Source of the DNA: Tribonema minus
Lineage: Eukaryota > Sar > Xanthophyceae > Tribonematales > Tribonemataceae
Length of the DNA: 64,000 nt
Assembly (NCBI GenBank): GCA_017506865.1
Contig: JAFCMP010000011.1
Location: 186,001-250,000 of the forward strand
Direction: 5' to 3'
Under the pieces are notes generated by a model, which worked only from the letters and a program-made list of their open reading frames with translations, made no database searches and was not told the DNA's origin. A program made the position numbers and the translations under genes. Positions 1,508-64,000 of the stretch are shown here, one piece after another; within the stretch, counting starts at the first letter, position 1; each line of letters opens with the position of its first letter.

Positions 1508-4500
1508 ATGTCATCTCGTTTCAGTTCTTCAGCTCATTATGCTGTGCGCGCGTGCTCTGCTGTTGCCCGTTACAGGAAATCGTCTAAGCGCGCTAGGCCC
1601 CCACCTCCCCAGCCACCAACAACGGTAATGTGATAAATTTCCACACATCCTCACATACAGTACCCCAATATATATCAGGCTGGCAGTGTGTACTGAGCAG
1701 TTGAGCGTTGATTGCAGTCATCTTTGGTGTTTGTATTGCTACCTGCCGATGCCTGCCCCGCACTGATTTCCATGAGCGGAGCTGGCACTCCCGATCAGTG
1801 TGTAACGCCAATGAAAAAGTTACCGTGCCAAGCCCTGGGCATCAGACAAAAAACTTGTCCTCAAGAGGGAAACCTGATTTCCAAGCTTTATGCCCAGGTC
1901 CGTTGCAGAGAGTCAACAGGGAGAGTGATGATAGTGTAAAGGACGTCAGTGCGTGATGTGTGCATATCATCACGCGCATATCGTGTGATCTACGGCAGTG
2001 CTCACAATGGCCGTGGCGCTCACTGCCATGCCGCTTTGACACACGCAGTGTTGATGGTCCCATGCTTGAACTGCAGAAAGAGCGACACGCATATGTCAAA
2101 GTACGCGGTTTTGCCTATGCCAGTTGTGTTGCTGGCTGGTGTTGCGCTTGCTATGTCCTTGACTGCAGGAATTCATTGTTGTTCAGACAGAGAACAGCAA
2201 AAGGGGCGACGTACTTTGTAGAAGTTTATATATGAAGTATATATATACATGGGCTCCGTCTGCTGCAACTCATGCTGCTGTCTGGTGTTGTGCTCGCTGC
2301 TCATGTATCAGGAACTCACACTCACTCGTGCTGCTGTCTGGCATTGCGCTCGTTATGTCTCTCTTGCAGGAACTCACACTCACGCTGCTGTATGGCATTG
2401 CACTTGCTGCGTATGCATCCGGCACTCACACTCATGCTGCTGCCTAGTGTTGTGCTCGTTACGTATGTATCAGGCACTCACACTCATGCTGCTGTCTTAT
2501 ATTATGCTTGCTATCAATTGCAGGAACTCACGGTGGAGCGTCCAACAGCGCGCTACAGCGACCTGGGTGGCATCTCGGGTATTCTGCAGGAGGTGACGCT
2601 TGCCACATATACATACTGCTCCGCATGCTATGGAGTCTGTGCAATGCGCATGCACTTCTGGCCACACCACTGCCTACAATAGCGCAAGCGGCGCAACCCC
2701 CTTTCTGCTGGCTACTGGTCGTGAGGCCCGTGTAGCAATACAAAACATGCTGGGCAAGCTGCCTTCTGCGTATGTATGTATTATTGTTTGACTCATGGCC
2801 AATGACTGCAGCAGCGGCGACCACGATTATTGGTGGAAGGCACTTGCGGCTAACCACTCCATGTCACTTAGAGCTCTACGATCTTTTGATTTGCTTCCAT
2901 TGTAGTGAGTCATGAAATAGCTCATTTGTGGGAGGCAGCCAAGCAAGCATTGTGGAGTGAGGTGTTGGCAGTGACGCCTACCTGCATGCAGGCGCTCGTG
3001 CGTACTACTTCAAGTACAACAGCCATGGTTTGAATGTCAACCACGCATCTGACTTGCAACTTTTATGGCCTCGCCAGCAATCGAGGCACTGTAGGTGCAT
3101 GGTGCGCATGCTTGTGTGCAAGACGCGGGTGTGGCCAACAAACAATCTTGGCTTGCACATATGCTTTAGTTGAGGTTGTGATCTACTTCACCCTATGGGC
3201 CTCTGAGTCAGCTAGCTTTTGTTGTCTCACGCGTGACTTAAAGGCAACATTGGCAGTTACTAAGCAAAATGCGTCATGCTGTGTACATTATTCGTACCTC
3301 GGCTCACACAGTTGCACATGACTCGCAACAAGAACTTGCTAGCATATCATTACATCATGCAGATAGTTTGGAGAAGGTACTCTGTGCTACTTTCGTCACA
3401 CAGAAGCTGCCGCAGCGCTGCGCCTGTCATAATAATCAATCCTGTATTGATATCAGACTTGGCAGTGGTAAAGTCAGCACAGGCAATCTGCAACAGTTTG
3501 TGCTCATGTTGCCCCCTTGCTCGGCTGGCTTTTCTTTGCAGGTCCGAGAACTGATAGAGTACCCACTTACACACCCTGAGGTGTATGCACATTTGGGGAT
3601 AGAGCCGCCTAGGGGCATACTCTTACATGGACCGCCCGGGTGTGGCAAGGTGAGCAGTTGAAGTTTGGAAAGCTCAACTGTTGCCCAATCACGCTGTGGA
3701 GTTCGATATACCTCGAAGTACCAGCAGTGTGTACGGCTGCAGTGCTCATGTGTCACTCCTAATTATCATGTCACGCGTGAGAAAGCTTGATTAAGCCGTA
3801 GGCACTCTTGTCATGTGCCCGCCACTTTGCTCTCGGCGCATGATCCTGCGTTCATCCAGTGGCGGTTGATGAATTAAAGCATGCAGACATGAACATGTAC
3901 ATTTTTCAAGTCATTATGCCTTGCGACGTCCTGGTGTGGGCTTCATAGGTGAAAAATGTCCCTGTTGCTGTGGAGACCTGAGATGAATCTTCACGCATTG
4001 AATGTCAACCTATATGCTGCAGGTTCACAAGTTCGATAATCAGCAGTGCTGAACAGTGGGCTCATGTTGCTGTTGTGCCTCTGATCTCATGCCTTTGTGA
4101 GCAGACACTCTTGGCCAACGCCATTGCAGGAGAGCTGGGCGTGGCCTTTGTGCGCATCTCTGCGCCAGAGATTGTATCGGGCATGTCAGGCGAATCAGAG
4201 CAGAAGGTCAGTAATACTACCTAAACCACATACTTACCTTGCATCATTTGGCGCGAAACGCCCGGATGTAGCTGCATGCATTAGGCCAAAATGCAGGCCT
4301 CTTGATTCTTGTTTCTTCAGCATTGTCTGCACCTGACAATTTGAAGACATTGGCCAGCATCTGACAATTTGAGGCAGCTGCAGGCAGCATTGACTTGTCT
4401 CAGGCAGGTTGCCAATTCGGGCTTCTGTCAATGCTTTTGCTGTGACGGCGTTCAAAGCATGGCCGGCGCATTCACAGGCAGATGGATGCACTGTGGCGCC

Positions 4501-64000: not shown

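Follow-up and report, generated by a model that had tools for sequence, protein, structure and literature searches.

Introns of the alga Tribonema minus often contain copies of the edges of their own flanking exons. Such copies, here called echoes, were present in 39 of 96 introns placed by homology (score ≥36), with an echo of the donor edge in 32 introns, of the acceptor edge in 17, and of both in 10. The echoes are very probably short tandem duplications that arise at a high rate and are tolerated at splice junctions while the outer sites stay in use. An earlier note on one 64-kb stretch of this genome had proposed tandem duplication across splice junctions as a genome-wide process; the echoes are real, they reach beyond that stretch, and the process was widespread in the genes sampled.

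Exon-edge echoes in the sampled genes and in the window

The genome comprises 158 Mb in 554 contigs, and the window, by which we mean the whole 64-kb stretch analyzed, is positions 186001–250000 of contig 11. Eighteen gene models were sampled, namely the NVL gene of the window and 17 AAA loci elsewhere in the genome. For the latter, 10-kb stretches were fetched around 18 AAA-domain hits, one of which (L045) was left unaligned. Models were built by spliced alignment with a purpose-written GeneWise-like aligner against reference proteins taken from PDB matches, except that the references for L031, L032, and L036 (two families, three of the 18 genes) were entered by hand. Ab initio models with fixed parameters served for candidate exons only. 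Requiring homology on both sides of an intron retained 96 of 112 introns and dropped 16; no intron of L028 passed, and 17 genes contributed. The median internal exon of the sampled genes was 160 nt and the median intron 673 nt.

The terminal exon sequence at each edge, 60 nt at most, was aligned locally with the intron, with a score of ≥36 as the intron-level threshold. At a stricter score of ≥60, 27 of the 96 introns still carried an echo. None of 192 reverse-complement probes reached 36, and the highest of 19,200 scores from dinucleotide shuffles was 36. The excess over shuffled controls by which the earlier note had proposed to judge its claim was thus found. So was the predicted polarity: no wrong-side match occurred in 73 comparisons of an exon tail with the previous intron or in 73 comparisons of an exon head with the next. 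This comparison discriminates little and was set aside as a decisive test, because a local duplication that spares the protein necessarily puts the spare exon edge in the adjoining intron.

At least one echo was found in 15 of the 17 contributing genes, and the 95% interval of the echo fraction from a bootstrap over genes was 0.29–0.56. Three additional genes outside the AAA family (DEAD-box, PGK, and SOD) gave echoes in three of seven introns, all three in the DEAD-box gene; PGK (two introns) and SOD (one intron) had no echo. A literature search by title, with many journals outside its reach, recognized no report of genome-wide splice-junction echoes.

Within the window, the earlier note had named 13 places where a piece spanning a junction recurs in the neighboring intron. 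Self-comparison and tandem repeat detection found direct repeats at 12 of them, including tandem units of 61, 82, 123, and 128 bp. The exception was 62242/62513, where comparison of ±70 nt scored 14 and self-comparison of the window gave no repeat. For 4830, 5038, 6190, and 60400, where the ±70-nt comparison overlapped itself, the evidence is from tandem repeat detection and self-comparison. Apart from low-complexity sequence, nearly all local repeats in the window were direct. Five of the 12 places lie at junctions backed by spliced alignment (acceptors 4891, 6021, and 11113; donors 4983 and 6132). Four of these junctions passed the exon-only threshold of 36, and the copy at 4830, belonging to acceptor 4891, scored 20.

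All five belong to the NVL-type AAA ATPase gene (2551–18199, plus strand, 18 exons), which was identified by its PDB match to human NVL (9bji, 536.8 bits) and by spliced alignment. The model starts and stops inside the gene, and the interval 8023–10438, which has no reference, was excluded from the counts. One NVL intron (4984–6021, plus strand) holds echoes of both its donor edge at 4983 (score 44) and its acceptor edge at 6021 (score 62), the shuffle maximum over all introns being 36. The donor edge of exon 4892–4983 recurs at 5142–5163 (plus strand; period 180) as 22 nt of exon at 100% identity followed by ~100 nt of intron at 79%, and self-blastn paired 4962–5083 with 5142–5263. Another copy of this donor-edge region, at 5073–5124 (plus strand), is identical to 4966–5017 at 47 of 52 positions. 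The acceptor edge of the exon starting at 6022 recurs twice on the plus strand with AG intact, at 5888–5923 (period 134; the match is longer than the period, that is, head to tail) and at 5753–5794 (offset 269). The donor edge of the same exon (6022–6132) likewise recurs twice on the plus strand with GT intact, at 6185–6214 (period 82) and 6267–6294 (offset 162). Elsewhere in the gene, the acceptor edge of the exon starting at 11114 has an echo at 10918–10965 (plus strand) in which AG is lost and reads AA, and a 61-bp tandem duplication covers acceptor 4891 (4794–4908, plus strand; 83% matches by TRF), its exon part falling below the exon-only threshold.

The remaining places have less firmly placed junctions. 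Those at 25100/25228 and 22680 match exon edges of the ab initio model only, in a minus-strand LRR gene whose predicted protein contains Pfam LRR_6. A 128-bp unit, repeated about 2.4 times (24978–25278, minus strand; TRF), lies over the edge of ab initio exon 23274–25028, with two copies beyond that edge, and a copy of 22517–22568 lies at 22686–22734 (minus strand; 43 of 49 identical) close to an edge of ab initio exon 22169–22585. At 19030, 42690, 43478–44066, 58896/59436, and 60400/60462, the repeats are real and their junctions putative. A 123-bp tandem unit at a putative junction is present in 2.3 copies at 43578–43880, with an extra copy at 44017–44147 (TRF and self-comparison). The window also contains EGF-domain coding sequence on the plus strand.

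Anatomy and decay of the copies

Copies were cataloged at a score of 34, keeping the best six at most per edge (two edges had six or more); copies at one junction are non-independent. This gave at least 94 copies at 52 junction edges (35 donor, 17 acceptor). In 66 of the 94 copies listed, the exon part stops exactly at the junction. The period to the nearest copy was 100–200 nt at 39 of the 52 edges, below 100 nt at six, and above 200 nt at seven, with a median of 150. In many copies the match runs across the junction and takes in intron sequence too. Eleven of the 52 nearest copies had a matched length ≥0.97 of the period, as in head-to-tail duplication; the median ratio for nearest copies was ~0.6, the intron side often matching only briefly. 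Perfect head-to-tail geometry is therefore shown for a minority of the copies. Direct orientation was the rule: among repeat pairs ≤2.5 kb apart in 264 kb, with low-complexity sequence excluded, 273 were direct and four inverted. Two or more copies were found at 21 of the 52 edges, and such edges seem commoner than expected from independent single events.

Two duplications in the window are young. One is a 251-bp unit repeated head to tail at 55468–55973, with 250 of 251 positions identical and ATGA at both breakpoints; the other is a perfect 42-bp tandem duplication at 57831–57916 with TG at both breakpoints. Shared breakpoint sequence of 4 nt and 2 nt was thus seen, in these two young window events only.

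Two details of the earlier description were not borne out. The graded decay it had reported, with identity falling away from the junction, was not seen: the nearer copy was the more identical in 32 pairs and the farther in 46, with five ties. Nor are the introns, as a rule, built from copies, since only 10 of 96 had more than half of their length in detectable direct repeats and 45 had none. Direct repeats covered 21% of the verified intron bases.

Mismatches between exon and echo amounted to 120/1389, 134/1389, and 267/1396 at codon positions 1, 2, and 3 among the copies listed (8.6, 9.6, and 19.1%). For the nearest copy per junction they were 8.0, 9.0, and 17.4%, and the intron side past its first 6 nt differed by 20.6%; exon-side divergence is somewhat too low in these figures, the copies having been chosen for a good exon match. 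The rates at positions 1 and 2 were equal (p = 0.51), which argues that the echo is free of coding constraint. Divergence at position 3 and in the intron is roughly double, as would be expected if both copies drift at free sites and the echo alone drifts at constrained ones. The splice dinucleotides tell the same story: among copies matching to within 4 nt of the junction, 51 of 61 still had their GT and 19 of 21 their AG. With a drift of ~9% per site, neutral retention would be 0.83 (0.91 squared), so the observed retention is approximately neutral, and selective destruction of decoy sites was rejected. The copies drift neutrally.

These data also bear on whether the echoes could be functional, as alternative mini-exons, spare splice sites, or regulatory decoys under selection. 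Decoy GT and AG dinucleotides are indeed mostly intact, and the ab initio gene finder called several echoes exons. Against this, the retention of the dinucleotides is close to neutral, mismatches are alike at codon positions 1 and 2, and the periods show no bias toward multiples of 3 (26, 34, and 34 of the copies listed had remainders of 0, 1, and 2). Splicing to the nearest copy was predicted to cause a frameshift at 39 of the 52 edges and a stop at nine, leaving the frame open at four. We regard a selected function as very unlikely, and selected mini-exons were rejected on the equal divergence at positions 1 and 2 and the unbiased periods. In the ab initio models of L028–L045, made with a codon-bias gene finder, several echoes appear as tandem mini-exons of the predicted protein. 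Since echoes mislead a gene finder in this manner, automatic annotations of such genomes may hold spurious tandem exons.

Short tandem duplication that is neutral once the outer site is used would explain these properties. Ordinary short tandem duplication, mostly of 100–200 bp, would be frequent in the introns of this alga, and a duplicated piece that happened to span a splice junction would leave the gene with two complete junctions. If splicing went on at the outer of the two, meaning the donor nearest the 5' end or the acceptor nearest the 3' end, the protein would be unchanged, the inner copy would become intronic, and the intron would be longer; the inner copy would thereafter decay as neutral sequence. 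The earlier note had held that one junction keeps working. Homology and spliced alignment agree with this, in that the conserved protein is matched by the outermost junction, and the aligned proteins continue across the echo junctions. Conservation of the protein thus suggests that cells splice at the outer site.

The outer pair may be chosen through exon definition, as exons are short and introns long (medians as above). Exon definition would favor the outer pair because any inner site lengthens the exon. The order of transcription perhaps helps as well, on the hypothesis that the first donor wins and the first acceptor harms, which would yield an excess of donor echoes. The duplications themselves may arise by patch repair of nearby nicks, by analogy with rice.

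General duplication in introns and the donor excess

Donor echoes outnumbered acceptor echoes, 22 introns having only the former and seven only the latter (p = 0.008). When probes were compared at equal reach (introns ≥400 nt, true-junction exon probes ≥50 nt), 28 of 80 donor probes and 17 of 82 acceptor probes matched (p = 0.054). Pseudo-junctions inside introns gave 76/514 for donor-like and 58/514 for acceptor-like probes. A simulation with one constrained copy showed that exon-edge probes gain a detection advantage of 1.47–1.60. After an advantage of ~1.5, intron-internal duplications predict about 16–18 donor echoes by hand arithmetic, as against the 28 of 80 observed. According to the simulation, the detection advantage is enough to explain the acceptor figure, but it explains the donor figure only in part.

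Probes drawn from intron sequence only matched at 0.13–0.19 per 60-nt bin over the nine bins closest to the donor and at 0.10–0.17 over the nine closest to the acceptor, with no rise at either junction over these bins; farther in, where few introns remain, they matched at 0.08–0.24. Donor-like probes outside gene models matched in 51 of 1033 cases. Single stretches beside the window gave 6/159 and 5/159, and other parts of the window gave 13/126, 21/149 (37–46.4 kb), 2/48, and 4/126. Inside exons, 2 of 192 probes matched.

Might a process aimed at splice junctions, such as transcription- or splicing-coupled breaks, preferentially duplicate exon edges? A process aimed at splice sites, as the proposal of the earlier note can be read, found no clear support. 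True exon edges (28/80 and 17/82) did match more often than pseudo-junctions, donor-like probes matched more often within introns (76/514) than outside gene models (51/1033), and the simulated detection advantage falls short of the donor excess. The intron-only probes, however, showed no rise toward either junction, the acceptor figure agrees with the general rate after correction for detection, and the 37–46.4 kb part of the window, outside a verified gene, shows the intron rate (21/149). Aiming at junctions is on this evidence unlikely. Our conclusion is that duplication affects introns in general, and that donors show an excess on top of this.

A long inverted repeat lies in the window between 27931–31063 and 32111–35238 (3133 aligned bases, 99.7% identity, ~1 kb between the arms) and could be a mobile element of recent origin or a palindromic duplication; 0 of 143 probes in this region had a local copy. 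An open frame of 2092 codons on the minus strand (46419–52694) contains a reverse transcriptase domain (Pfam RVT_1, E = 6.6e-7), and no local tandem copy was found in it (0 of 98 probes).

Intron lengthening and relation to known systems

The earlier note had also inferred that these duplications lengthen introns, and echo-bearing introns were indeed longer, with a median of 791 nt versus 575 nt (p = 0.0012). It had mentioned tandem duplication as a proposed route of intron gain; a link to such gain was not supported where it could be tested, namely at 16 intron positions common to paralogues (same reference residue and phase). Some but not all members had an echo at eight of these positions, all listed members at three, and none at five. 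An echo that is absent from a paralogue may have decayed, instead of never having been present. We take the introns to be older than the echoes because the paralogues are discordant and the visible echoes have drifted by only ~9%. The best reading is that echoes represent lengthening of older introns rather than intron gain.

According to the model of Rogers, introns arise by tandem duplication of exonic AGGT segments, and the echoes would then be remnants of the gain. It would fit with this model that exonic sequence sits inside an intron beside its source. Yet an echo occurs in only some members at eight of the 16 paralogue-shared positions, and many copies match across the junction and thus include intron sequence as well, so that we judge such an origin extremely unlikely.

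Tandem duplication that carries splice signals is an established route to new introns, the classic model of which leaves the protein unchanged, according to passages of two papers (PMC4974935, PMC3443670); PMC3443670 cites Rogers 1989, Hellsten 2011, and Gao & Lynch 2009 for such gains. The same two papers (PMC4974935, PMC3443670) mention an 83-bp tandem duplication within an intron of a potato gene. As those passages describe it, intron gain involves the same kind of mutation and produces a new intron, whereas here existing introns were lengthened, in 39 of 96 cases. A Drosophila study (PMC2891723) of novel intron positions that arose by sliding or tandem duplication gives five of 31 cases in which coding sequence near splice motifs was tandemly duplicated. 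The Drosophila cases, as presented there, are new intron positions, in contrast to the paralogue-shared positions here, which are unchanged.

The size range and orientation of the copies can be compared with those of rice. Passages of a rice study (PMC7971508) name short tandem duplications as the commonest source of insertions, enriched at 50–200 bp, describe them as free of direct transposon mediation, and attribute them to patch repair of adjacent nicks, an account cited there to Vaughn & Bennetzen 2014. As in those passages, the copies in T. minus are local and direct (273 direct versus four inverted pairs), with units mostly within about 50–200 bp. For rice, the tandem-duplication share is stated to be 70% at 125 bp and to have dropped to 5% at 200 bp (PMC7971508), and the nearest periods here, mostly 100–200, are longer than that fall-off. 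The rice events, as reported in that portion of the study (PMC7971508), are variants between genomes, unlike the copies within one genome seen here, and splice junctions go unmentioned there.

Introners are copies of one element inserted in many genes, with a genome-wide effect on introns. The copies found here are, unlike introners, local to their own exon. Nothing in the echoes favors introners or other dispersed repeats, although the window does hold the reverse transcriptase frame and other repeats. Window positions 4700–6400 are single-copy in the genome. The L036 stretch matched its own place and gave five partial matches, three of them within an exon, one to 35 nt of the intron, and one to a 620-nt repeat past the modeled exons. 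Neither of these two loci, searched genome-wide, had near-identical copies dispersed in many genes, and the candidate was rejected. Assembly error is unlikely because it would not give such divergence between copies (~8–10% in the exon part and 20.6% on the intron side). We consider the probability that dispersed repeats, introners, or assembly error produced the echoes to be practically negligible.

Short tandem duplications at high rate, tolerated where the outer site is used, thus remain our preferred explanation. Rough hand arithmetic leads one to expect about one 150-bp duplication per 100–200 neutral substitutions. A broader proposal, which we put forward tentatively and hold to be somewhat doubtful, is that short tandem duplication, and not transposon insertion, is a main engine of intron lengthening in this lineage, and that the donor excess reflects a rule of splice choice. 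If this proposal is true and the sample typical, thousands of introns would contain duplicated, often intact, and neutrally decaying junctions, amounting to a natural experiment in splice-site choice. A spare downstream donor, transcribed later, would be nearly free, and a spare upstream acceptor, transcribed first, would be costly. Independently of this proposal, the source of intron growth is readable, since the conserved exon gives a constant standard for measuring how far each duplicate has decayed. Decoy sites that keep their GT or AG and are flanked by tens of nucleotides of genuine exon sequence are common and appear to decay neutrally, which makes the choice of copy by the spliceosome testable by RNA-seq.

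Several other features of the genome were recorded. Two distant repeat pairs in the window, 42863–42969/58564–58670 (87.9%, direct) and 1160–1282/2785–2901 (80%, inverted), may be mobile-element remnants. Short interstitial tracts of TTAGGG-type, telomere-like sequence occur at 7218, 11387, 14775–14944, 22911, 25296, 26132, and 42195–42236. The light-harvesting family has 92 matches in the genome, and two fragments that were compared match FCP, ACPI, and CAC chains, which we take to be red-lineage chlorophyll a/c types.
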